Positions 6,708 to 18,875 of a DNA stretch of 64,000 nucleotides are shown here, piece by piece (the stretch's first letter is position 1; every line of letters starts with the position of its first letter). The DNA is from Nitrospira sp. (GTDB lineage: Bacteria; Nitrospirota; Nitrospiria; Nitrospirales; Nitrospiraceae): assembly GCA_022226955.1 (NCBI GenBank), contig CP092079.1:1705053-1769052 (forward strand), in the 5' to 3' direction. Under the pieces are notes generated by a model. The model worked only from the letters and a program-made list of their open reading frames with translations, was not told where the DNA came from and searched no databases. The translations under genes were made by a program, and so were the position numbers.

Positions 6708-7727
6708 TCAGTTCGCCGGCTTGTCCGCCGCCGGCTCATCCGCCTTCGGTGCGCGCAAGGTGGTCAAATACATGCTGACGGCCTTGGCATCGACATCGCT
6801 CAGCCCCAACGCCGGCATCCTGGTCTCCGGCTTCATCGACTGCGGGTTCTTAAGCCATCGGTAGACCCAGGTCGCATTCAAACGGAACCCGGCGCGGTCC
6901 AATGCTGGGCCGACCTTGCCGCCCTCTCCGGCCAAACTGTGGCAGCCGTTGCAACCATACTTATTTTGATAGAGCCGCTTGCCCAACTCTATCTGCTGCG
7001 CGGCTTGCTCGGGCGTCATCGTCATGTCGGGTCGGGCGATGTTGAGTCCTTTGCCTGGCCGCGTGCCGAAATTGTTCAGCAGGACCTGTGCGGCATCGAA
7101 CGCCTTCTTCGCGGCAACCATCGCGGCCTGCTCTTTGGCATAGGACTCTTCATCGACTTCGACGTCTTTCTTGAGCGCTTCGCTCTTTTTCTCGGCTTCC
7201 TCGCTGGCTTTCTTCTCGGCCGCTTCGTAGACTTGCTTGGACTGATCGAAACTGTCCTGCGCGGTTTTAAGCGAGTCGGCCAGTTCTTTCTTGCGCTCTT
7301 CGACTTTATACTCCAGCTTCATGCCATGCAGGGTGCGCACATAGCCGACAATCGCCCAGACTTCATCTTCCGACAGCGTGTACTTGAACGTGGGCATCGT
7401 CGGAACGGCAAAGTCGTCGTCGCCGATCTTATCTCCGCCAGGGCTGGTGTCCTTCATGTCGCGGGAGATCGTATTGAAAATATCCTCGTCCTTGAAGGTG
7501 CTCATCTCGGACTTATTCGAAAGATCCTTGGGCTTCGGATCCGGCATGGAGGACCAGTTGAATCCCTCATTCTGCCGGCCGCTCTCTCCATGACAGTGCA
7601 TGCAGTAGTGGGCGTACAGCTCCTGGCCTTTTTTCTGCTGCTCGTTCGCGCAACCGCCCGCGGTCATGGCCCAGATTCCAATCAGGCCGGCGACCGCGCC
7701 TATGACTTGTAGCCTTGCCGCCTTCAT
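6708..7727 (-). CDS. Diheme c-type cytochrome lipoprotein with coiled-coil linker
   Basis: Periplasmic electron carrier of 339 residues, the last gene of the respiratory operon. A signal segment ends in TAGGC (lipid-anchored Cys about 26). Heme site 1 is CMHCH at 42-46 and heme site 2 is CNGCH at 259-263, each in a small cytochrome c fold; GPALDRAGF and ETRMPALGLS after site 2 give the usual distal Met region. Between them, residues ~140-215 are almost pure charged/Ala helix (KKELADSLKT, EEAEKKSEALKKDVEV), a predicted coiled coil. The ATG at 7727 overlaps the upstream stop by four bases (ATGA), which fixes the start and argues for translational coupling. It probably shuttles electrons among the complex subunits. 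Confidence 0.88.
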   Translation of the reverse strand: MKAARLQVIGAVAGLIGIWAMTAGGCANEQQKKGQELYAHYCMHCHGESGRQNEGFNWSSMPDPKPKDLSNKSEMSTFKDEDIFNTISRDMKDTSPGGDKIGDDDFAVPTMPTFKYTLSEDEVWAIVGYVRTLHGMKLEYKVEERKKELADSLKTAQDSFDQSKQVYEAAEKKASEEAEKKSEALKKDVEVDEESYAKEQAAMVAAKKAFDAAQVLLNNFGTRPGKGLNIARPDMTMTPEQAAQQIELGKRLYQNKYGCNGCHSLAGEGGKVGPALDRAGFRLNATWVYRWLKNPQSMKPETRMPALGLSDVDAKAVSMYLTTLRAPKADEPAADKPAN

Positions 7728-8563
7728 GCTGCCTGTCCTTTCTTCAATTTTCTGATCAGGACAAACTGGAATCCCAATGCCAGCGCCGTCGCAAAGGCCG
7801 CATAGTAATACCCGGAGTAATCGGGCGGCGCTTCCGCGCGGAAGTACCACCAGGAAGACACAGCCTTCTGCGAGCCCTTCTCGACCAGATCGCCCGACCC
7901 ATCTTTCCGCCCATCCCAGACTGCGAAGGCGATGTTGATGAATCCGCCCGGAATAAGTTGCGTATCTTCGTCGGCATGCTCGGTCGCCAAGGGTCTGGTG
8001 AAGACCACTTTCCAGGTGCCGTTCGAGAACGCCCCGGTGGCCTTGACGTCTTGGTGCGTCTGGATTTTCAGAGTGCCGAATCCCTGGGCGTTCATATCGA
8101 CGCCCTTTTTATCCTTGTTTTTCCAATACCAAATATTGACGGGACCGCCCTCGACCTGCATCATCGGCTGGCCGTGCGCGAAGTGGGCCTTTTTATCGCC
8201 GACCATGAACTCGATAGCGGCGGCGTCATCCGGGTCTTCCGTCGGATCGGCGTATTCCAGCAAAACGGCGACTTGCGTGCCATCGTGCAGCGCGCGCACG
8301 GAGAGATCCTTGACGGTGGTTTCCAAGATGCGATTCGGCCAGTGCACCTGCGGGGACATCGGGAATTTCGCCGGTTTGGCCGTACTCCAGATAGCCGCAG
8401 AAGGATCGTCAACGGGAAGCGTTCCCTTGACCAGCGGAGCGCTCACGGACACGCTCGCGCCTTCCTGCGCCAAACAGGGAGCCGCTCCGGACAGAATGAG
8501 AGCTGTCACTGCGACCGCTCCGACTCCGCTCACCCATTGTCTGACCTGATTCGCCGGTTTCAT
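7724..8563 (-). CDS. NxrC-like / ethylbenzene-dehydrogenase-type heme b protein with C-terminal anchor
   Basis: A 279-residue exported protein. A signal peptide (MKPANQVRQW to ~32) is followed by a beta-rich domain of the DMSO reductase family gamma-subunit type (EB_dh), seen in PVDDPSAAIWSTAKPAKFP, VAVLLEYADPTEDPDDAAAI and IAFAVWDGRKDGSGDL. It ends in one membrane helix (YYAAFATALALGFQFVLI) and a short basic tail. In Nitrospira, proteins of this type are proposed NxrC heme-binding subunits of nitrite oxidoreductase. Here no nxrA or nxrB is adjacent; instead it sits between cytochrome c genes of the bc/bd-like operon, so a role as an electron-transfer subunit of that complex is inferred. It overlaps the downstream diheme gene by four bases. 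Confidence 0.8.
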   Translation of the reverse strand: MKPANQVRQWVSGVGAVAVTALILSGAAPCLAQEGASVSVSAPLVKGTLPVDDPSAAIWSTAKPAKFPMSPQVHWPNRILETTVKDLSVRALHDGTQVAVLLEYADPTEDPDDAAAIEFMVGDKKAHFAHGQPMMQVEGGPVNIWYWKNKDKKGVDMNAQGFGTLKIQTHQDVKATGAFSNGTWKVVFTRPLATEHADEDTQLIPGGFINIAFAVWDGRKDGSGDLVEKGSQKAVSSWWYFRAEAPPDYSGYYYAAFATALALGFQFVLIRKLKKGQAA

Positions 8564-8615
8564 ACGGGCCTCGTATTCGATTCACAGAAGGACAACGACC
8601 AACGGTCGCGTCGCA

Positions 8616-9332
8616 TTATTCCCACGTTCTCGGTGATTGATGGGCGCCATCGTACTCGCCCATGATGATCTTCCAGATCCACTCGTCCGGCAGCTCCACT
8701 TCCCATCGCGGCATGGCGGACTTCCACGGCATGCCTTCGATCGGAAGCCCGACGCCGCCTTTCTTGATCCTCCAAAACAGATAGCTCTCCTGAAGCATGG
8801 CAATGGTCGTCGGATCTGAAAAATTCGCCGGCGGAGGATTGAACCCGCGCGCGGCTGGACCTTTTCCGTCGAAATTTCCACCATGGCAGGGCGAACAGAA
8901 CGCGGCGTAGAAGCCCTTTCCCTGCATGATGTTTTCCGGTGTCTTGGAAACTGGATTAGACAAGCCCGTATACTCCCCAGGAGGCGCCGGGTGAATAGTT
9001 CGATTCTCGGCCGGCGGCGCGTCGCTCACAGCGGTGCTGCCAAACGTCTGCCACCCAACGAGCAACGGAAACAGAATGAGAAGCGCGTAGCGAGCCGTCG
9101 ACAGCACGCCCAAATTCTCACCCGTCATGAACCGTTGAATCGGCCCCCAAAAAGCATCCTTGGATTCGCTGCTCATCGTATAGAAAATCACGATGCCGGC
9201 CGTGACCAGCATGAGATAAAGAAAAATCAAGCTGGCCGGCAGCGGGGCCGATCCTGGAATATTGGGCACCACGAACTTCAGAAACAAATACATGGCAACC
9301 AGTAGAATTGCCGGTTTTGTTAACATTCCCAT
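8616..9332 (-). CDS. Membrane-anchored monoheme cytochrome c
   Basis: A 238-residue protein with three N-terminal membrane helices (about 7-25, 32-52 and 80-98) and a periplasmic cytochrome c domain whose heme site is CSPCH at 146-150. The segment YLFWRIKKGGVGLPIEGMPW strongly resembles the cytochrome encoded at 17561-18100 (VWFWRISEGVPNTKMKAWKS), so the two are paralogous cytochrome subunits. GTGAGGAGG-type ribosome binding sequence precedes the ATG. It lies 10 bp before the next cytochrome gene (9343), so it is an operon member and likely a fixed electron-transfer subunit of the membrane complex. Confidence 0.88.
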   Translation of the reverse strand: MGMLTKPAILLVAMYLFLKFVVPNIPGSAPLPASLIFLYLMLVTAGIVIFYTMSSESKDAFWGPIQRFMTGENLGVLSTARYALLILFPLLVGWQTFGSTAVSDAPPAENRTIHPAPPGEYTGLSNPVSKTPENIMQGKGFYAAFCSPCHGGNFDGKGPAARGFNPPPANFSDPTTIAMLQESYLFWRIKKGGVGLPIEGMPWKSAMPRWEVELPDEWIWKIIMGEYDGAHQSPRTWE

Positions 9333-9342
9333 CGAAGCCTCC

Positions 9343-9966
9343 TCACTGTGCCTGTGCCACGGCGACGGGTGCCGCTTCCGCAGTCTTGACCGGCGCAGCC
9401 GGCGCCTTCCCAGGCATTTCGAGTTCAGACGGATTGACCGAAATCGGTTCTCCGCTCATCTGCTGCAAAAACGCGATGATCGACAGAATTTCGTTCTTGG
9501 ACAACCCGATTGGATCCTTATTGATGTACGGCATGCGCGCGGGATATTCCTTCGGAATGCCTTCGTGACGATAATCGAGATAGATATACGCCTGTGGCTG
9601 CGTCAGGCTTTCAAAGATGAATTCACGGCTCAGCTTGGCGCCGATGCCCTTGAGGTCAGGACAACGAGCCGATTCGCTCGGGCCGATGGAATGACATAAG
9701 GCGCACTGGCCCTTGCTGAAGAAAACCTTCTGGCCGATCGACGCCATGTCAGCCGGGGTCTTGATGCTGGCGATGTCAATGCTCTCTTCGGCCGGCGGCA
9801 ACGACGCCATTTGCGGAACGGCCAGCGCAACCAGGGAAAAGAGGCCAAGGACGATGAACACAAACCCGATCACCCGCAAAAATTGCGAGCGGATAAAGAG
9901 CAGGATGAGAATCCCCGATCCGACGACCGACAGGCCGATTAACTGTAATTTGACGACTTCACTCAT
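9343..9966 (-). CDS. Membrane-anchored monoheme cytochrome c
   Basis: A 207-residue protein with two N-terminal membrane helices (residues ~8-26 and 31-51), a periplasmic cytochrome c domain with heme site CALCH at 88-92, a distal Met candidate in PARMPYINKDP, and an Ala/Pro-rich tail. It follows the CydA-like gene by 27 bp and precedes another cytochrome by 10 bp. The double-helix anchor suggests a bound subunit of the CydA-like complex, possibly supplying it with electrons instead of quinol. Electron direction is inference. Confidence 0.87.
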   Translation of the reverse strand: MSEVVKLQLIGLSVVGSGILILLFIRSQFLRVIGFVFIVLGLFSLVALAVPQMASLPPAEESIDIASIKTPADMASIGQKVFFSKGQCALCHSIGPSESARCPDLKGIGAKLSREFIFESLTQPQAYIYLDYRHEGIPKEYPARMPYINKDPIGLSKNEILSIIAFLQQMSGEPISVNPSELEMPGKAPAAPVKTAEAAPVAVAQAQ

Positions 9967-9993
9967 AGGACTCCTCTGAGCAAGACGATCCGG

Positions 9994-11850
9994 TTAGATC
10001 TGCTTGTCCAATGTTTGAGATCCTCCTGCCATGGCCGGCAACGCTCCATGGCTGTCGGCGCCTTTTTCCTTGCTCCCATGCGCATTCTTGCCTTTATCGC
10101 CCATGGTGGCCACCCAGAAGATGAACGCCACGATCATACAGAAGAAGAATGTGTTGGCCGCCATGAGGACCGCCGCGTAGCCTAACGCGGGAGAGAAGGC
10201 GTATTGCGACGAATCGCGCATGACGCCATAGACATGCCAATGCACACGCGATGAGGACCTGGCATACCCCATCAAGGTCATCAGCAGAATGACCATCACT
10301 GCGTTCAAGACGAGCGCGTAACCAGCTCGCGGCGGCATGCGGCCCCAGACCATTTCCGTGGTGGTCTTGGCGCTCTTGAGAATCGCCGACGTCAATAGCG
10401 TGAAGGTCACCAACACGAAGAGCACGATGCCGACCTGCGAGGTCGAGAAGTAGTTGATGCGGATGATCGCCGGCACAAAGTACCCGTAGACGCCGAGCGC
10501 GATCACGGCAAGGCCGGCAATGACGAGCAGCGCGTTCATGATGGCTTTCGCGACGCGCGCCCATCCGACCGTAGCCTGCTTCCCGGCTTGCCAATACATC
10601 AGAAAGCTCATGAAGGTGACGAGCACCATCAGATTCGACACCGTCATCTTCGCCGACATGACGCCGAAGACACCCAGCAGCGGATGGTGCGTGCCGCCCA
10701 TCTTTTGAGCTTCTTCGAGGCTGGCAACCAGGGAGTGCGGCGTCATCCACACGCCAAGACACAGCAGGAGAATCACCAACATCGTCAGGATCGGCCGCTT
10801 ATACTGCGCCTCCGATCCTGGGATGCGATGGGTAATGCCCATCCAGAAATAGTAGTTCGAACCAAGAAAGAGCACGCCGATGAGCATGGCCTGCAGAATA
10901 AACAGCCAGGACAGGAATCCGCCCATCAGGGTGATGCCCATCTGCTGGTTGTACTGATAGATCTCGCGCATCAGCCAGTACCCGGCAAAAGGCAGCGGCA
11001 GCAGACCGAACACACCGATGAAGTTCCCGACGTAGCCCATCCAGTCGTAGTGCTCCCGCTCTTCGGGAGTCCTGGCGGAAAGGTAGCGAATGCCGGCGTA
11101 GGCACCGCAAATATACCCGCCTAGCACCACGTTGGCGATCAGACGATGAATATTGACCGGCCACCAAGTCGGGTTCCAGGTCGCCGCCCAGGCTCGGGCG
11201 AGATCGGATCCTTCTGCAATGACCACCGGACTGGCCTGGAAGGTGGCCCAGGAGTTCGGGATAATCATGATGAAAAACGCGAAGAAGTTGAGCATGAATC
11301 CGAGGAACAGATGGAACACTTTCGACCCGCCCTCGGACATCGCGTCCCACCCGTACCAGTACATATAGAGGGTTGCGGTTTCGAGCAGGAAGAGCGCGCA
11401 ATACACCATGAACGATGGGAAGAAAATATCGCTCAAGTACGCCATCAGTTTTGGATAGGCGCCGATGAGGATGAACAACAAAATACCGCCGAACAGAGCG
11501 GTCGTCGAATAGGCGGAACTCAAGAGCTTCGTGAATTCCTTCGCCAGCTTGTCGTACCGCTTTTCACCGGTCTTCCAAGCGACGACTTCGCAAAGCCAGG
11601 CGAAAATCGGCACGCCCAGCACAAAGCCGGCGAGCAAGAGATGCAACTGCGCAATCACCCACACCAGGTTTCGACTTCCGACCACCGGGACGTCCCGATA
11701 GGCGACCGCCGAGGTATAGCCGGTATCCGCCGCCATTCCGAGCACCGGAGCGGCAAGCGCTCCCAATGCCGCAACGAAGGCCGCCACCGCAGCGGGCGAT
11801 TCGGCTATCAGCCGAATAAGCCGTTGAATCATTCCAGGCCGTTCCATCAT
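9994..11850 (-). CDS. CydA-like (cytochrome bd superfamily subunit I) protein, copy B
   Basis: A 618-residue polytopic protein with about 14 hydrophobic segments. It aligns with CydA in the early QLHLLLAGFVLG helix, where the His matches the heme b595 ligand, in FLLETATLYMYWYGWDA and in VNIHRLIANVVLGGY, whose His fits the b558 ligand. Of the two helix-3 acidic residues known in E. coli CydA (E99 and E107), only the second appears; the first position is Val. I find no canonical quinol-binding Q-loop motif, and there is no cydB in the operon. The ORF can be extended to a GTG at 11859, but that lies inside the ribosome binding sequence GGAGAGGTG, so the ATG at 11850 is chosen. It is a clear paralogue of the gene at 15818-17521 and may be an oxygen-reacting or purely electron-transferring subunit. 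Confidence 0.85.
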   Translation of the reverse strand: MMERPGMIQRLIRLIAESPAAVAAFVAALGALAAPVLGMAADTGYTSAVAYRDVPVVGSRNLVWVIAQLHLLLAGFVLGVPIFAWLCEVVAWKTGEKRYDKLAKEFTKLLSSAYSTTALFGGILLFILIGAYPKLMAYLSDIFFPSFMVYCALFLLETATLYMYWYGWDAMSEGGSKVFHLFLGFMLNFFAFFIMIIPNSWATFQASPVVIAEGSDLARAWAATWNPTWWPVNIHRLIANVVLGGYICGAYAGIRYLSARTPEEREHYDWMGYVGNFIGVFGLLPLPFAGYWLMREIYQYNQQMGITLMGGFLSWLFILQAMLIGVLFLGSNYYFWMGITHRIPGSEAQYKRPILTMLVILLLCLGVWMTPHSLVASLEEAQKMGGTHHPLLGVFGVMSAKMTVSNLMVLVTFMSFLMYWQAGKQATVGWARVAKAIMNALLVIAGLAVIALGVYGYFVPAIIRINYFSTSQVGIVLFVLVTFTLLTSAILKSAKTTTEMVWGRMPPRAGYALVLNAVMVILLMTLMGYARSSSRVHWHVYGVMRDSSQYAFSPALGYAAVLMAANTFFFCMIVAFIFWVATMGDKGKNAHGSKEKGADSHGALPAMAGGSQTLDKQI

Positions 11851-11876
11851 GGATATCACCTCTCCGTCGCCCAGTC

Positions 11877-12872
11877 TTAGGGTGTTGCTGGAGCCTTCGC
11901 CGGTGCCTTGACATCGGCAGGCTTCGCCTTGCCGGCCTTCCCCTTGTCTTTTTCTTTTTCCGCTTCTTCTTCAGCCTTCTGCTTTTCTATCGCCTCTACC
12001 TGCGCGGTGAGCTGAGCCACCTGCTTTTCAGCTTTATTCAGTGTATCCACAGGCTTGTAGAGCGGAGCGGCTTTGGCTTCAGGCGGCTTGCAGCATTCAT
12101 GCGGATGCGGCGTGCTGACCGGAAGACCGGACCAAAACAACATAGAAAGGACCGCTCCTACGAGCGTGGTGGCCGTCAACATCAATCCTTGGTCGGCCGG
12201 CACGCGCATCAAATCCCATCGCGTCACCAGCGCTTGATACGTCCCAGAGGCAGGCGCGGCGCCTTGAGTTGCACGTCGAATCACACGTCCAACCAGGGAC
12301 ACGCCCAGCAGCATCATCGCAATCAGCACGCCACTGGAAATGCTTCCCCATATCGTCAGTTCGATCCCGATCTTTTCCGCAACCGGAACGTGTTTGAGCA
12401 TCTCCATCTCGAACAGACTATGCGAGAAGTCGATGGACGTTTGCGTGGCGAAGCTCACCACCATCCACAAAATCGGCATGAAAATAGCGCCCGCGATCGC
12501 GGTTTTCATCCAGACCGACAATCCCAAGCCATCCGGCGGTTCGAGCCGAAGCTTTTCGAGAAACAATGTTCTCGTTACAACCCCGGTCGCCCAAATATCG
12601 ATGGGAATGCAGATCAAAAACAACAGCGCGATCCCGGCCCCTTCACCGAGATGCGGCTCCGCGACCATGGCGAGAATCGGCATGGCAAACACGGTCACCG
12701 GACTAGCAAGATACATGAGAAACGCCAGGCCGATACGGGTCTCAAAATGAATAAGGCCTAGCGCCAGGAACAGAAGGCAAATGCCAACCTTGATTGGGAA
12801 CCCGGTCCAACAAATGGACCAAAGTGCGTTCAATCCAAGCTTGACGGGGGACGGCATTTCTCGCTCGGTCAT
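11877..12872 (-). CDS. Polytopic membrane protein of the respiratory operon, unknown family
   Basis: I do not recognise this 331-residue protein. It has about seven hydrophobic segments in its first 260 residues (for example PVTVFAMPILAMVAEP, IALLFLICIPIDIWATGVV, ILIAMMLLGVSLVGRVI-like stretches), a short His/Cys-containing patch HPHECCKPP after the last helix, and a charged coiled-coil tail rich in Lys, Glu and Ala. The ATG at 12872 with AGGTGAAAC ahead is preferred over a longer frame that starts at 12983 inside the cytochrome b gene. It sits between the cytochrome b and CydA-like genes, 26 bp from the latter, and so could replace CydB structurally, which is only a positional inference. Confidence 0.75.
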   Translation of the reverse strand: MTEREMPSPVKLGLNALWSICWTGFPIKVGICLLFLALGLIHFETRIGLAFLMYLASPVTVFAMPILAMVAEPHLGEGAGIALLFLICIPIDIWATGVVTRTLFLEKLRLEPPDGLGLSVWMKTAIAGAIFMPILWMVVSFATQTSIDFSHSLFEMEMLKHVPVAEKIGIELTIWGSISSGVLIAMMLLGVSLVGRVIRRATQGAAPASGTYQALVTRWDLMRVPADQGLMLTATTLVGAVLSMLFWSGLPVSTPHPHECCKPPEAKAAPLYKPVDTLNKAEKQVAQLTAQVEAIEKQKAEEEAEKEKDKGKAGKAKPADVKAPAKAPATP

Positions 12873-12910
12873 AGTTTCACCTGGAACGCGGTTCACGTCG
12901 CCTCGCTCAA

Positions 12911-14023
12911 CTAGTCCAAAAATTCCCGGTTGATAATGGCAGCCACGGTAAACAGCAGGATCATCGCCATCACGACGATCCAACCGATCAATGCGATGGG
13001 ACGTTTGAAAATATTGCGCTCAGGATCTTTATCGATAAACGGGAGCGCCGCCATGAGGGCCATGAATGCGCCAGGCAAAGCAATCGCGCCGAGAAACTGT
13101 CCGAACTCCCCGCCGAACATCTTGAGCCGCAGCAATTGAAACAGGAAGAGGAAGTACCACTCCGGTTCAGGGTGATAATCGCCTGGATCGGGCGTGGCTT
13201 CTTCAAGCAAGACTACAGGCTCCCAGAAGGCCAGCGCGCAGATCGTGAAAAACACGGCGATCATCCCGACGATATCCTTCCAGATCTGACGCGGGAAAAA
13301 GTAATCGGTCTTCGCCTTGATCTCTTCAGGTGTGCCGCGGAACGGACCGGCTGGACCGGCAGCTCTGAACAGGAAAATGTGCAAGCCCGCCAAACCCATC
13401 AATGCGGCCGGCAGAACCATGACGTGGATCACAAAGAATCGGCTCAGAGTCATCTGTCCTGGAATGGCCCCTCCCTTGAGGAACCGCGCCATGAAGTCTC
13501 CGACCAGAGGCGTCTTGTCCATGATCTCGACACCAACCGTGGTTGCCCAATAGGCTCGCTGATCCCACGGGAGCAAATAGCCGGTAAACCCGAATCCCAT
13601 GACGATCCCGAATAGGGCCAGGCCGACCAGCCAAATCAATTCACGTGGACTTTTGTAGGCGCCCCAGAGAAAGACCTGCGACATGTGCGCGAACACGCAC
13701 ACGACCATCGCGGTAGAACCCCAGAAGTGATAGCTGAGAAGGAACCACCCGTAGTCGACTTCATGAATGATGTATTGCGTGCTGGCAAACGCATGATCGG
13801 CGGTCGGCACGTAATAGAACATCAACAAAATACCGGTGACGGCCTGCATAATGAAGATGAATAGCAAGATGGAGCCGAAGACATACGCCCAACGCGAGCC
13901 TCCTGGAACCGGCTCATTGAGCATCTTCGCTTGAAGCGTCTTAAGGCCGACTCGCTCATCGACAAAGGCAAGGACCTTTTCGAGTGCGGTAAGCTCAGTG
14001 GAAGAAGACGGTGTCTGTTGCAT
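12911..14023 (-). CDS. Cytochrome b of a bc1/b6f-type complex
   Basis: Membrane diheme b subunit that oxidises quinol and passes electrons to the Rieske protein. 370 residues with about eight helices, joining the cytochrome b6-like and subunit IV-like parts in one chain. Heme ligands are visible: H99 and H113 in helix 2 (SYHFWGSTAMVV, 13 residues between) and H200 and H215 in helix 4 (VIHVMVLPAALMGLAGLH, 14 residues between). The 14-residue second spacing is the b6f pattern; bc1 has 13. The Qo-site motif PEWY is present in HPEPEWYFLFLFQLL. It begins 5 bp after the Rieske stop codon. Confident in family and role, less so in partner for onward electron flow. Confidence 0.95.
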   Translation of the reverse strand: MQQTPSSSTELTALEKVLAFVDERVGLKTLQAKMLNEPVPGGSRWAYVFGSILLFIFIMQAVTGILLMFYYVPTADHAFASTQYIIHEVDYGWFLLSYHFWGSTAMVVCVFAHMSQVFLWGAYKSPRELIWLVGLALFGIVMGFGFTGYLLPWDQRAYWATTVGVEIMDKTPLVGDFMARFLKGGAIPGQMTLSRFFVIHVMVLPAALMGLAGLHIFLFRAAGPAGPFRGTPEEIKAKTDYFFPRQIWKDIVGMIAVFFTICALAFWEPVVLLEEATPDPGDYHPEPEWYFLFLFQLLRLKMFGGEFGQFLGAIALPGAFMALMAALPFIDKDPERNIFKRPIALIGWIVVMAMILLFTVAAIINREFLD

Positions 14024-14028
14024 AATGA

Positions 14029-14964
14029 TCAGATGATCCGGATTTGAGTTTTAGTACCGGCCTTGAATTCCATATCGATAATTTCAACCTCGCCCGTCGC
14101 AGACACCTTAATGGGAAGCGCATCGAGCGCGCGAGGCGCCGGCCCATCAAGCACTTTCCCCGCCGCGTCGTAGATGCTCAAATGACAGGGACAGAGAAAC
14201 ACTTGCCCCAGGACTTTATGCTGGCGCCATTTGTAGCCGCAGCCAAGGTGCGGGCATTTCCCAGAAAAGGCCACGTACGGAAAATCCTTTTTGTTCGTCC
14301 AGACGGTCTTGCCTGCGGCGTCCTTAAACTCCATGTCCTTGCCTTGATAGACCTTCTCCATGACAGTCGGCGTGACTTTCAGCACCCAGACATTTTTCTC
14401 GATTTCCGATTCCGGCATGTACGCTTCTTTGACTTTGCGCTTGTACTTAAACTGGAAGCCAATATCGTCCTGCTTGATCTTGCTGACATTGCCGATCTTG
14501 AGCCAGCCGTTGTCGAACGGAGAGTACATGGGCTTCATGAGATAGCGCAAAACTGGATACGCGATCGGGAGGCCGATCAGGAATCCGATCACATGCGTAA
14601 AATTCATGAAGAATGTACGGCGCTTGACACTCTTCTCGAGCTCGGGGAATGGAACCAGCACTTCACCGGGCGTGACGTGAATGCGATCTTCCAGATGCGC
14701 AATCTCGACTTCGTGCGTCGTCACATAGTCGTCACGCTTGAATGGCGGCAATTCGAGAATGTCGCCGGCCGCCGCGCGCAACTCGACAAGATCATCGGCA
14801 ACAGACTGGACGAACGTCATGGCGACCTGGCGCTCTCCGCTGCCATTCATCGACACGACGATATGGCTGATTTCATGCGAGAGAGGATCGACAATGACCT
14901 TCGAGACTTCCCCGATTTCGCGATCCGTCGCGCGGACTCTTGATTTAAGTTTCGGCTGCATCAT
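14029..14964 (-). CDS. Rieske iron-sulfur protein with N-terminal PRC-barrel-like domain
   Basis: A 311-residue [2Fe-2S] protein. C-terminal Rieske signatures are CPHLGC (C237, H239, disulfide C242) and CPCHLS (C258, disulfide C260, H261); the last residue is usually G in CPCHGS. One membrane helix, about residues 120-140 (NFTHVIGFLIGLPIAYPVL), anchors it. The first ~100 residues have the pattern of a PRC-barrel-type beta domain (SRVRATDREIGEVSKVIVD, SHEISHIVVSMNGS), which is not part of a normal Rieske protein. It shares one base with the stop of the upstream cytochrome c gene (TAATG), so start and coupling are well defined. Proteins with this architecture are odd; the PRC part would be on the cytoplasmic side. 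Confidence 0.93.
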   Translation of the reverse strand: MMQPKLKSRVRATDREIGEVSKVIVDPLSHEISHIVVSMNGSGERQVAMTFVQSVADDLVELRAAAGDILELPPFKRDDYVTTHEVEIAHLEDRIHVTPGEVLVPFPELEKSVKRRTFFMNFTHVIGFLIGLPIAYPVLRYLMKPMYSPFDNGWLKIGNVSKIKQDDIGFQFKYKRKVKEAYMPESEIEKNVWVLKVTPTVMEKVYQGKDMEFKDAAGKTVWTNKKDFPYVAFSGKCPHLGCGYKWRQHKVLGQVFLCPCHLSIYDAAGKVLDGPAPRALDALPIKVSATGEVEIIDMEFKAGTKTQIRII

Positions 14965-15767
14965 TACTTCATCTTGATGGGTTTCGGTGTATTGACTGAC
15001 GCATTCTTAAACGTCGCGAGCCAGGCGGCCAAGGCCTGCACATCCTTGAGCTCCATCAGATCTTTATATTTATCCGGCATCTTGCCCTTGTCGTACTCCG
15101 CATCGAATCCCTCTGCCTTGTACGACTTGGGATCGAGAATCTTTCTCGCGATTTCCTCCTGCGACAAGAGCGTTCCGATATTGTCCAGCTCCGGACCGCG
15201 CTTCTTCCCGCCCTCGCCATTCAACTTGTGACAGTTGTAGCACTCCTGGAGCTGCCACTGCTCCTCTCCAATCTTGAGCACATCGCCACTCGATGCACCG
15301 GCAGCAACTGGAGCCGCTGCCGCACCGGCATCTTGACCTGCGGCACCCTGCACAGTCCCCAAAGCCTTGATCCGCTCGGTCAATTCCTTGGCCTTAAGAT
15401 CCAACTCCTTGGTGCGTGCAATCACTTCATCGGCCTTCCAAGGGTCGAGAATATTGGGCTTGCCTTTCAAAATCTTGACGATTTTACCCTTCTCATCCTC
15501 CGGATCGTATTGCGGCCAGAGCGACGCGCCTGAAATGAACACCGTGCAAAGAATGGCATAGAAAACCAGAAGCGAGACCAGCGCCTTCCCGCCGCTCATC
15601 ACCTTCATGGTCGGCGCATCGAGAATCAAGAAGACGACGGTGCCCAGCACGGCATACCCAAAGAAAAGCCATCGGAAGACAGGTGGAAAATCGAGCGCCA
15701 TCGTAGCCATATACAGGCCGACGCCGATCACGAGTCCGACGATAATCTTAACGATTGCCTTGCCCAT
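14964..15767 (-). CDS. Membrane-anchored monoheme cytochrome c
   Basis: A 267-residue protein with three hydrophobic segments in the first ~85 residues (GKAIVKIIVGLVIGVG, VFRWLFFGYAVLGTVVFLI, ALVSLLVFYAILCTVFISG), a helical Ala/Gly-rich linker, and a cytochrome c domain with heme site CYNCH at 176-180. GKMPDKYKDL gives a distal Met candidate. Immediately upstream of the Rieske gene, it is the likely cytochrome c1/f counterpart of the b/Rieske complex, although its N-terminal anchor and small size differ from both. GAGGAG four bases before the ATG supports the start. Confidence 0.9.
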   Translation of the reverse strand: MGKAIVKIIVGLVIGVGLYMATMALDFPPVFRWLFFGYAVLGTVVFLILDAPTMKVMSGGKALVSLLVFYAILCTVFISGASLWPQYDPEDEKGKIVKILKGKPNILDPWKADEVIARTKELDLKAKELTERIKALGTVQGAAGQDAGAAAAPVAAGASSGDVLKIGEEQWQLQECYNCHKLNGEGGKKRGPELDNIGTLLSQEEIARKILDPKSYKAEGFDAEYDKGKMPDKYKDLMELKDVQALAAWLATFKNASVNTPKPIKMK

Positions 15768-15817
15768 AATGCTCCTCGTTCTAAATCCCTATGAAGGCAC
15801 CAGGATAAATTCGACCA

Positions 15818-17521
15818 CTACTTCGCTCCAGCCGGAACCGGACTACCCTCAGACGCATGCTCTTTGGGATGCGAGGCGCGCAGCGTCACGATAATCGCGA
15901 AGCTAACCACGGCATAGAACACCACGGTAATACCCGTGATATACCAAGCCGAATAGGCCAGAGTCGGCGTAAAGGATTCCGCCGTGAAGTCTGGCAGCAA
16001 GTTATACGTGTGAAAGTACTTCCGCAGGAGCGAACGAACCGCACCCATCAAACCCATCGTCCAGATCGCACTAAAGGCTAAGAAAATCAAGACGAACTGC
16101 GACGCATAATCGATCTTGCCCCAGACAATGGTCCCCTGGGTCACGGCGCGATTATAAATAATGTAGTTGACCACGGTGACAAAAACGAGCGTGAAGGCCG
16201 CCGAATTCTTCGCCGGCATCAACGCCAGAAAATTCCAATCGGACGGCAATTCCAACTCAGCCACCAACTTGGCGCCCGTCGGCACAAAGCCGTGCGGCGT
16301 GAGCCAAATCGCATTGCCCACCACGACCATCAAGAAACCGATTTTGATAACCGTCCGCGAGGAAACCGTGATTGGAATAAACCGGCCGAGAACGGCCGGC
16401 GCCAGCAACATCGGCAAGAGGAACAGCAGCGACATGGGATCGGGCGCCGGATAATCCGTCAGCACCTTCGTCATCACCAAGGGAAGCGCGATCATCACAA
16501 TCGGGGCGATGATGGTCATGCGAACCTTCTCAACCCCTTCGATGCGCTTCATACTTAGCCAAATGTAATAGTTACTAGCTAAGAAGATGAGCCCGATCAT
16601 AGCCCCCTGCATCTCGAAGAACATCGACAACTGATCCGCCATCATGTACGGGCAGATAGAGGCATCGTAATCGCACAATTCATACGCCAGCAAATACCCC
16701 ATGAACGGCAGGAACAACAGCGCTCCCACACCGATCATATTGCCGATAAACCCCATCCAATCGTAATAGGCCCGCTCTTCGTCCTTCGTCGACCCCATGT
16801 ACATATAGGCGGCAATCAATCCAGCCACGAACCCGCCGAACGTCACGTTCCCAACGAGCCGGTGCATATTGAGCGGCATCCAGCTGTAATTGAACATCTT
16901 GTCCCAGATCGTGGCGGTCGCTAGGAACTCAACGGGAGACACGCCCTCGGCCTTCACCGGCGTATTCATGAAGGAGGTGGGGCCATCGATTACAAAGAGC
17001 GTAATCGATCCGATGAGGTTCAAGAGCACCCCGAGCGCGATGTGACGCGCCTTCTTATTCCCCTTCCATGCATCCCATGTATAAAAATACATGTAGAGCA
17101 CGAAGGTCTCTCCGATGAACAGCAGCGGATAAATGACGGCAAAGACAATGAAGAAGTGGTTGATCAACCAGGTCGTGAACTGCGGATAGGTCGCCAGCAG
17201 CACGAAAATGAAAAGTCCGCCGGTCAATGCGGTCATGCTGTAGAGAATGACCGTAACTTTCGTAACTTCCTTCGCCAACCGGTCATAGCGGGGATCCTGC
17301 TTGCGATACCCCAGCCACTCCGAAATGACCACGAAAATTGGAGCCCCAAGGATAAACCCTGCGAACAGGATATGGAGCTGAGCGACGATCCAGACCGCTG
17401 TCCGGTTCCCAGTATACGGAAACTCAACGGGCGGCGTGCCTGGTGCCTGCGCATAGGCCGCCCCGCCGAACAGCGCCAGAAGCGCAAAGAGAGCCATGAG
17501 ACCGCGCTGCCATGTTTTCAT
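15818..17521 (-). CDS. CydA-like (cytochrome bd superfamily subunit I) protein, copy A
   Basis: A 567-residue polytopic protein, paralogous to the 9994-11850 product over most of its length. Shared features are QLHILFAGFILGAPIF (His about residue 50, b595-type ligand), FIGETFVLYMYFYTWDA (E107-type Glu; the E99 position is Ile) and LNMHRLVGNVTFGGF (b558-type His). It starts with a cleavable signal-like segment ending AAYA, unusual for CydA. No Q-loop motif and no CydB partner are seen. It follows a lipoprotein cytochrome c by 39 bp and precedes the cytochrome c/Rieske/b genes. Together with copy B it frames the b/Rieske genes, so the two may belong to one assembly or to two alternative end-points. 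Confidence 0.85.
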   Translation of the reverse strand: MKTWQRGLMALFALLALFGGAAYAQAPGTPPVEFPYTGNRTAVWIVAQLHILFAGFILGAPIFVVISEWLGYRKQDPRYDRLAKEVTKVTVILYSMTALTGGLFIFVLLATYPQFTTWLINHFFIVFAVIYPLLFIGETFVLYMYFYTWDAWKGNKKARHIALGVLLNLIGSITLFVIDGPTSFMNTPVKAEGVSPVEFLATATIWDKMFNYSWMPLNMHRLVGNVTFGGFVAGLIAAYMYMGSTKDEERAYYDWMGFIGNMIGVGALLFLPFMGYLLAYELCDYDASICPYMMADQLSMFFEMQGAMIGLIFLASNYYIWLSMKRIEGVEKVRMTIIAPIVMIALPLVMTKVLTDYPAPDPMSLLFLLPMLLAPAVLGRFIPITVSSRTVIKIGFLMVVVGNAIWLTPHGFVPTGAKLVAELELPSDWNFLALMPAKNSAAFTLVFVTVVNYIIYNRAVTQGTIVWGKIDYASQFVLIFLAFSAIWTMGLMGAVRSLLRKYFHTYNLLPDFTAESFTPTLAYSAWYITGITVVFYAVVSFAIIVTLRASHPKEHASEGSPVPAGAK

Positions 17522-17560
17522 GATGACTCGCCGCTCCTCCTTACGAGATTAATCTGCCGT

Positions 17561-18100
17561 CTACTTGCCGGCTTCCGGGGCCGCCGCAGGGGCAGAGGCC
17601 GCTGCAGGTGCAGCCGCAACAGAAGCCGCATCAACCCAGGCCTTCTTACCTTCATCCCAACCCTTGCCGGCCAGCCCGAAGCTGCTTTCGAACAACACGA
17701 GCTTCCATCGATCTTCATCGGACAACTTGCTCTTCCAGGCCTTCATCTTGGTGTTCGGCACACCTTCGGAAATGCGCCAGAACCACACGGCATCAGAATA
17801 CAACTTCATCCGATCGCCGACGCGAAAATCGCGCGCACCCGCCTTGACCGGCTTGCCATCCTTACCGTGACAGCTGGCACAATTTACATCAGGATTTGTC
17901 TCGCCGATGAAAAGCTTCCGACCTTCTTCAAGCTTGGCAGCATCCGCCCACCAGCCCGCAGGCATGTGCTTATCAGCATACTCAGCAGGAGCAGGAGGAG
18001 GCGGAACCACCGGACCTTCACCGCCGCCTTCACCACCTCCGCAACCAGCCACCACTAAACCCAAACCCAGCACCATCATCAAATGCCACGACATTTTCAT
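17561..18100 (-). CDS. Monoheme cytochrome c lipoprotein, first gene of the respiratory operon
   Basis: A 179-residue periplasmic lipoprotein (LVVAGC lipobox, C20) with a Gly/Pro-rich linker, heme site CASCH at 74-78 and an Ala/Pro-rich tail. Its segment VWFWRISEGVPNTKMKAWKS is closely similar to the cytochrome at 8616-9332. GGAGG seven bases before the ATG supports the start. It is the first gene of eleven on this strand and is followed by the CydA-like copy A, so it is likely its electron donor. The upstream 200 bp should hold the operon promoter, but I see no box pair good enough to call. Confidence 0.88.
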   Translation of the reverse strand: MKMSWHLMMVLGLGLVVAGCGGGEGGGEGPVVPPPPAPAEYADKHMPAGWWADAAKLEEGRKLFIGETNPDVNCASCHGKDGKPVKAGARDFRVGDRMKLYSDAVWFWRISEGVPNTKMKAWKSKLSDEDRWKLVLFESSFGLAGKGWDEGKKAWVDAASVAAAPAAASAPAAAPEAGK

Positions 18101-18308: not shown

Positions 18309-18875
18309 TTATTTTTTCCGTCGCCCCTGCCCCTTCTCTTGCTTTCCATCCCGCTTGCGCTGAGACCGAGAGACCTTCACACCAATCAACAAAGCAACCA
18401 GTCCACCGATGGACGCTAAAACCACCCACAGCCACGTCGGAGGCGCCGATCGGTCCACGACACAGCCGGATCCGAAATTGACCTGAATCTTTCGCTCACT
18501 CTCAAGATCCTTCGGATCGAACTGAATCTTATGATGCTGCTGCTCGCCTCTCGTCTCAACCAGAAGCGGATCACCTAGGTTGTCATTATGCAGGTGAAAT
18601 GCTGCCTTGTAGTACCCGCCGTCATCCGTTGTGACGGTCTGCCCATATGAAATTCTCGTATCCTTAACTAAGACTTCTGTATTGATGCTCGGCGTCCCAT
18701 CGGCCTTACACACAAACCCTTCGACCGTATACCGATGGTCTGCCTCATGGGTAGCGTACAAAATACCGGGACGTTCAACGGAGGTGAAGATACAGGCTAT
18801 GGCGACAATAATTATCCACCGAAAGCCAGACGCTCTTCTTGATTTCCACTCCACTCGTCCGTGCCGATCTCTCAT
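18309..18875 (-). CDS. Exported hypothetical with carboxypeptidase-regulatory-like domain and C-terminal anchor
   Basis: A 188-residue protein. The N-terminus holds a hydrophobic signal segment (WIIIVAIACIFTS). Residues ~45-135 look like a transthyretin/carboxypeptidase regulatory-like beta-sandwich (YTVEGFVCKADGTPSINTEV, TDDGGYYKAAFHLHN, GDPLLVETRG). A C-terminal helix (WLWVVLASIGGLVALLIGV) and a strongly basic tail follow, so most of the protein faces the periplasm. It precedes the respiratory operon on the same strand but has its own terminator. The start is uncertain because no clear binding site is visible. I infer no specific function. Confidence 0.7.
   Translation of the reverse strand: MRDRHGRVEWKSRRASGFRWIIIVAIACIFTSVERPGILYATHEADHRYTVEGFVCKADGTPSINTEVLVKDTRISYGQTVTTDDGGYYKAAFHLHNDNLGDPLLVETRGEQQHHKIQFDPKDLESERKIQVNFGSGCVVDRSAPPTWLWVVLASIGGLVALLIGVKVSRSQRKRDGKQEKGQGRRKK

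Follow-up and report, generated by a model that had tools for sequence, protein, structure and literature searches.

The question raised by this locus is how Nitrospira respire oxygen: most nitrite-oxidizing members of the genus have no heme-copper oxidase, and what serves as their main terminal oxidase has been a matter of hypothesis since 2010. We analyzed a stretch of 64,000 nucleotides (the window, positions 1705053-1769052) from a single-contig, 3.635 Mb Nitrospirales genome with a completeness of 99.8%. Eleven co-directional genes on its minus strand, running from 18100 down to 6708 and termed g1 to g11 (Table 1), encode two CydA-like proteins (g2 and g7), a cytochrome b, a Rieske protein, c-type cytochromes and an NxrC-like protein. 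We propose that this is probably the Nitrospirales CIII / OR-N CydAA' operon, which joins a quinol-reactive cytochrome b/Rieske module of the complex III type to a bd-like O2 reductase fed by cytochrome c. The system is already known: the locus is the published CIII_1 / bd-like_1 / bd-like_2 / alt_nxrC_1 locus, of which the window holds one more ortholog. Relatives in which the oxidase subunit is fused to a cytochrome c provide new, testable evidence on how this published locus works.

The window proteins were assigned to families using Pfam and NCBIfam. The intergenic gaps from g1 to g11 are 39, 50, -1, 5, 38, 26, 27, 10, 52 and -4 bp, and this spacing, nowhere wider than 52 bp, fits a single transcription unit. 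A preceding reading of the stretch, made from the sequence only, had claimed an eleven-gene operon with two CydA-like proteins, a b6-type cytochrome b, a PRC-Rieske protein and six c-type cytochrome genes, lacking CydB. The operon stands, and its gene order recurs in Nitrospirales. The cytochrome count required correction: six CXXCH motifs are spread over five c-type cytochrome genes (g11 is diheme; the NxrC-like g10 has none). The start codons of g6 (12872) and g11 (7727) both differ from the longest-open reading frame (ORF) starts. Promoter matches in the window were no better than those in shuffled sequence. Terminator-like sites were more numerous than in shuffles (24 vs. 13.5), yet they were scattered on both strands and were not used.

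Both CydA-like proteins matched the Pfam family PF01654 (E values of 4e-21 and 1e-13), as the sequence-only reading had supposed, and NCBIfam gave no match for either. Their sequence likeness to canonical CydA is mainly limited to the first half of the protein, and a sequence search of solved structures returned only weak kin for g2 (5doq) and nothing relevant for g7. Comparison of single-sequence profiles with that of E. coli CydA spanned no more than the N-terminal half, which led us to build a profile of canonical CydA. The AlphaFold2 models of g7 and g2 (mean predicted local distance difference test scores, pLDDT, of 76.5 and 81.3, respectively) aligned end to end with solved CydA structures, g7 with 7ose (Z 32.1 over 349 residues) and g2 with 5doq (Z 31.0 over 350 residues). 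The next-best fold matches for both models were subunits of alternative complex III (Z 18-22). Judged by these models, g2 and g7 would each adopt a complete CydA fold.

Alignment to the canonical profile placed H19 at H50 of g2 and H70 of g7, H186 at H220 and H235, E107 at E138 and E157, and R448 at R500 and R535, respectively. M393 fell on M435 of g2, which aligns with M398 of g7 in MAFFT, and a methionine equivalent to M393 is a probable ligand in both proteins. The histidine ligand positions and the methionine show no variation across the 80 g7 and up to 60 g2 sequences compared, and the E107 position is kept in 77 of 80 g7 and 52 of 59 g2 sequences. The E99 position is occupied by Ile, Val, Leu or Phe among g2 sequences and by Tyr in g7, the E445 position by Ser in both, the Q-loop residues K252 and E257 are unconserved, and no GRQPW motif was found in g2 or g7. 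In the models, additional helices separate the H186 region from that of M393, and in bd-like relatives helices have been described to replace the Q-loop (PMC3578206). The alignment bears out the earlier residue claims, namely a retained helix-1 His and helix-3 Glu (E107) with loss of the E99-type residue, and the standard Q-loop residues expected of a quinol-oxidizing CydA are absent. An invariant histidine (g7 H539, g2 H504) lies seven residues past the E445 position; our guess is that it is a candidate replacement heme ligand.

In the phylogenetic tree, g2 and g7 formed separate clades (support 100/100 each). A sub-clade of loci assigned by kinship to the same genus as the window (L043, L044, L202-L220) carries a divergent g2, which is 67-70% identical to that of the window and so less similar to it than the g2 of another family (72-76%). 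The otherwise conserved histidine of a TPH motif (H410 of the window g2) is Ala, Ser, Gly or Asn in this sub-clade, and the proposed His and Met heme ligands are kept there as well.

The quinol site motif PEWY is found in g5 (at 287), and quinol chemistry was therefore assigned to cytochrome b and not to the CydA-like proteins. The heme-ligand spacing of g5 (H99-X13-H113 and H200-X14-H215) agrees with the b6-type assignment made before. The four ligand histidines, PEWY and the Rieske cluster motif are all features of a bc/b6f-type complex III and are shared with cytochrome b6f/bc1. The operon differs from these complexes in having the b6 and subunit IV regions as one 370-residue protein, a Rieske protein with a PRC-like extension, and no obvious dedicated cytochrome c1 or f. 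Of the claimed PRC-Rieske protein, the Rieske half was verified by its cluster motifs, and the PRC half scored 17.2 bits against a Pfam cut-off of 21.2. The g10 protein scored 115.8 bits against TIGR03477, under the cut-off of 169.85, and NxrAB is absent from the operon; g10 falls short of the curated definition of nitrite oxidoreductase (NXR) subunit C on both counts, the heme b subunit cut-off and NxrAB adjacency, and is NxrC-like only. Almost every Nitrospirales copy of the operon includes the membrane protein g6, which is missing from looser forms outside the order; 37 of 67 g6 orthologs carry an H-x-H-x-C-C motif, a possible metal or heme site.

CydB (PF02322) was found neither in the operon nor in the whole genome, as the sequence-only reading had claimed for the operon, and the same search was positive in 10 control genomes. 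Among 118 Nitrospirales assemblies at least 95% complete, CydB reached the cut-off in 66 and a full-length or near-full-length COX1 was present in 13. About 50 of the 118, counted by hand and including the genome of the window, lack both CydB and a full-length heme-copper subunit I, and it is therefore very likely that the operon carries their O2 reductase. The lone COX1 match in the genome is a 430-residue protein in which only positions 4-180 of 436 were matched, and it was not counted as a heme-copper oxidase. This protein (L005 1081-2373; G000 1448209-1451682) recurs in many Nitrospirales and is probably not an oxidase. The genome contains four CydA-like genes; the two outside the operon (L036 10049-11929 and 15414-17381; G000 2636000-2655999) lie near a multicopper oxidase and c-type cytochromes and are apparently the published bd-like_3 and bd-like_4 cluster.

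These data bear on a different function for g2 and g7, as quinone/cytochrome c oxidoreductase modules akin to the membrane subunits of alternative complex III, which would reduce quinone with nitrite-derived cytochrome c by reverse electron flow while O2 is reduced elsewhere. The loss of E99 and E445 from both proteins and the next-best fold match to alternative complex III subunits speak for it, and the possibility has been raised for the related bd-like_3 proteins (PMC3578206); that the operon already has a quinone-reactive cytochrome b can also be read in its favor. Against it, the Q-loop residues are lost from g2 and g7, the match to the CydA fold exceeds that to alternative complex III by about 10 Z units, and no variation was seen at H19, H186 or the probable M393 equivalent. 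In addition, the roughly 50 near-complete genomes without CydB or a full-length heme-copper oxidase would require another O2 reductase. We consider this function unlikely.

The strongest indication of the electron donor came from relatives. In seven loci, a g7-type CydA and a g8-type cytochrome c (CALCH) are encoded as one in-frame ORF with 0 internal stops and 0 N (Table 1), and both families were matched in the two fusions on which Pfam was run. The fusion of the neighboring genes g7 and g8 in relatives argues for g8 docking on g7 and supplying it with electrons. The fusions and the loss of the quinol site together support cytochrome c as the predicted direct donor of the second CydA-like protein, in line with the earlier suggestion that cytochrome c and not quinol is the donor. 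With CydA and cytochrome c in one polypeptide, expression and assay of a single protein could address the donor question without recourse to an organism that lacks genetic tools. Apparent fusions in L128-L131 and L154 were discarded as artefacts of alignments that extended beyond the stop codon. A single-clade origin of all fusions was disfavored by an approximately unbiased (AU) test with p 0.027, a value to be read with caution. In one further metagenome-assembled genome (MAG) (L132, JACQCB010000137, 7104-10352), an ordinary g7 reads through into g8 with no stop, possibly an independent fusion or a sequencing error in this single MAG.

All eleven genes are colinear in 14 of 14 Nitrospirales loci from two families (the last gene of L049 is cut by a contig end), and of 80 named loci, more than 40 show the same order, with contig ends truncating most of the others; the comparison genomes are mostly MAGs. 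Such recurrence across Nitrospirales loci shows that the arrangement is not due to chance. The operon genes of N. moscoviensis and N. defluvii are 50-94% identical to those of the window, and on the N. moscoviensis chromosome (NZ_CP011801, L188) g0 to g11 are colinear at 64-94% identity, the eleven genes at 67-94%. Orthologs of g2 and g7 occur in 117 and 116 of the 118 genomes, respectively. The strict co-conservation supports the earlier proposal of one or two linked complexes, as far as sequence can tell. The sole exception seen was L173 (Nitrospirota bin371 chromosome, CP070743), which has g7-g11 without g1-g6 in 9 kb upstream.

Alternatively, the operon could hold two independent single-subunit enzymes, g2 with g1, g3 and the Rieske/cytochrome b pair and g7 with g8-g10, each homo-oligomeric and with different functions. 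The modules g1-g2-g3 and g7-g8-g9-g10 do occur separately outside the order, the g7 module alone has been exchanged in Nitrospira sp. RCA, and bd-like_3 and bd-like_4 lack an adjacent g2 partner. Against this, both proteins are present in nearly all Nitrospirales genomes, only L173 lacked g1-g6 beside g7, and OR-N1 is paired with OR-N2 in published trees (PMC12342949, PMC10839748), which makes two separate enzymes quite improbable. An ordinary quinol-oxidizing cytochrome bd with an unusual partner, for which membership of the Pfam Cyt_bd_oxida_I family and the full CydA fold could be cited, can practically be dismissed, as the genome has no CydB, the proteins have no Q-loop, no GRQPW, no conserved K252/E257 and no NCBIfam match, and the residue pattern contradicts it.

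We return to the proposed view of the operon as a complex III joined to a cytochrome c-fed CydAA' oxidase. Gene content and order, conservation, fold, ligand pattern, quinol-site loss and the g7-g8 fusion in relatives can be read from sequence, whereas the g2/g7 heterodimer, O2 reduction, the path of the electrons, the connection to nitrite and a supercomplex, if there is one, are inferred. In this scheme, g5 and g4 would take electrons from quinol at a Qo site of the b6f type, or work in the reverse sense to reduce quinone, and would exchange electrons with the membrane-anchored c-type cytochromes g1 and g3. Periplasmic electrons, in nitrite oxidizers presumably from NXR, would enter via the heme b protein g10 and the cytochromes g9 and g11; this nitrite link is suggested by the NxrC-like gene together with published expression. 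The cytochrome c domain of g8 would hand electrons directly to g7, which would pair with g2 in place of the CydA/CydB pair and reduce O2.

Several observations weigh against this scheme. The loss of E445 and E99 from both subunits leaves the canonical heme b595/d site incomplete, and O2 reduction is not certain. The ligand methionine of g7 was assigned by MAFFT only, the direct profile alignment having left it unplaced. The fusions speak for contact between g8 and g7, not for a g2-g7 heterodimer, and the g2/g7 pair may not be obligate: outside Nitrospirales, g7-g8-g9-g10 was found without the rest and g1-g2-g3 stands alone in L067, partly on short contigs. No purified or assayed member was reported in the literature searched. 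Finally, NxrA had no match in the assembly of this genome, which has gaps; relatives have NxrA. Two 100-N scaffold gaps were present in the 375 kb checked (L107 3526-3625 and 6943-7042), and nxr copies are known to be lost from assemblies (PMC12342949). The reading of an NXR-less Nitrospira was dropped on these grounds, and the missing NxrA is likely an assembly gap. A search for ammonia monooxygenase (AMO) gave no match in any control genome and is therefore uninformative.

The OR-N type CydAA' oxygen reductase was reportedly described by Murali, Gennis and Hemp in 2021. The window operon has in common with it two CydA-like subunits with H19/H186 equivalents in a CydA-like fold, the second in place of CydB, as well as the absence of a Q-loop and quinol site and the cytochrome c neighbors. 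The pair g2/g7 is the proposed OR-N CydAA' oxidase, its physical pairing and activity being predicted; the OR-N1/OR-N2 labels were carried over via the NIDE0901-type ortholog, and our tree separates the g2 and g7 families only. Compared with E. coli CydAB, the CydA fold, H19, H186, E107 and R448 are shared, whereas CydB, the Q-loop, E99, E445 and GRQPW are missing. The same eleven genes in the same order, with no essential difference, form the CIII_1 locus of N. moscoviensis, which Mundinger et al. (2019; PMC6606698) described as strongly expressed and co-expressed, proposing a complex III/IV supercomplex that reaches NXR through alt_NxrC_1. An NIDE0901-like OR-N2 subunit with an OR-N1 CydA is considered the probable terminal oxidase of most Nitrospirales (PMC12342949); the cytochrome c donor hypothesis has been stated, with experimental proof said to be missing (PMC10839748), and the enzyme has been presumed to be the main cytochrome c-oxidizing terminal oxidase in organisms for which no genetic tools exist (PMC10579370). 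The view of the sequence-only reading that the system is incompletely described was hence half right: the locus, its expression, the supercomplex idea, the CydAA' pairing and the donor hypothesis were already in print.

A further relative is TO_2 of Ca. Manganitrophaceae, which has two MrpD-like subunits and, according to its description (PMC9040806), occurs in that family only. Like the window operon, it contains a bd-like protein and c-type cytochromes, together with a periplasmic cytochrome b. The window operon has no MrpD-like subunits, in contrast to TO_2 and to the operons at L122 and L124. A TO_2-like cluster is present in G101 (L050), with a CydA-like protein 58% identical to g7.

In Nitrospira sp. 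RCA, g1-g6 and g9-g11 are Nitrospira-type (65-88% identity), whereas g7, which is fused to g8 (68%), reaches only 58%, and between the fusion and g9 lie two Proton_antipo_M proteins (E values of 6e-58 and 6e-41). The RCA g2 adjoins that of N. moscoviensis in the tree (99/96), whereas its g7 is not part of the Nitrospirales g7 clade (100/100) and groups near sequences from Nitrospinae and Omnitrophica (89/65). The most plausible explanation of this conflict is that the g7-g8 module was replaced horizontally. The antiporter subunits are upstream of the fusion in RSF151 and downstream of it in JACQBZ01. In two Nitrospira MAGs (L122, L124), an operon of the window type contains both a fusion and two Mrp/complex-I-type antiporter subunits, and we found no report of antiporter subunits inside a Nitrospira complex III operon in the literature searched, which excluded subscription papers. 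Most fusion loci have adjacent Mrp-like subunits in varying order. We tentatively suggest that the operon could encode a cytochrome c oxidase-complex III assembly that is modular and translocates ions, with an exchangeable g7-g8 unit, horizontally acquired in RCA, and that in RCA and RSF151 the fused polypeptide and the two antiporter subunits might couple a bd-family oxidase directly to proton or sodium pumping.

Table 1. Genes of the operon and its upstream neighbor (window positions), key residues of the CydA-like subunits, and loci with a CydA-cytochrome c fusion.
Feature	Position	Strand	Description
g0	18309..18875	-	small protein, C-terminal membrane helix, weak carboxypeptidase-regulatory-like domain (PF13620 below cut-off)
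g1	17561..18100	-	monoheme c-type cytochrome, CASCH, lipoprotein-like N-terminus
g2	15818..17521	-	first CydA-like subunit; bd-like_1 ortholog of N. moscoviensis, 94%; full CydA fold as modelled
g2 residues			retains H50, H220, M435, E138, R500; E99 replaced by I130, E445 by S497
g3	14964..15767	-	monoheme c-type cytochrome, CYNCH, membrane-anchored
g4	14029..14964	-	Rieske [2Fe-2S] protein, CPHLG / CPCH; weak PRC-barrel at N-terminus
g5	12911..14023	-	cytochrome b, b6/subunit-IV like; H-X13-H, H-X14-H, PEWY
g6	11877..12872	-	multi-helix membrane protein, no Pfam/NCBIfam family
g7	9994..11850	-	second CydA-like subunit; bd-like_2 ortholog of N. moscoviensis, 81%; full CydA fold as modelled
g7 residues			retains H70, H235, M398, E157, R535, W538; E99 replaced by Y150, E445 by S532
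g8	9343..9966	-	monoheme c-type cytochrome, CALCH, membrane-anchored; proposed direct donor of g7
g9	8616..9332	-	monoheme c-type cytochrome, CSPCH, membrane-anchored
g10	7724..8563	-	NxrC-like / ethylbenzene-dehydrogenase / dimethyl sulfoxide (DMSO)-reductase type II gamma-like heme b protein, C-terminal membrane helix; alt_NxrC_1 ortholog, 73%
g11	6708..7727	-	diheme c-type cytochrome, CMHCH + CNGCH, lipoprotein-like N-terminus
Fusion loci	L050, L051		G101
Fusion locus	L091/L122 (same locus)		Nitrospira sp. RCA; fused protein at L122 9001-11370
Fusion locus	L124		Nitrospira sp. RSF151
Fusion locus	L125		JACQBZ01 MAG
Fusion locus	L123		Nitrospinae MAG
Fusion locus	L151		Omnitrophica MAG, 5' end cut
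RCA module	L122 9001-14804		CydA-cytochrome c fusion, then two Mrp/complex-I-type antiporter subunits, inside complex III operon

The small gene g0, which the sequence-only reading did not list, lies on the same strand 208 bp upstream of g1, a position kept in most Nitrospiraceae loci, and is a possible twelfth member of the operon. A g0 homolog is also found close to the G101 cluster.

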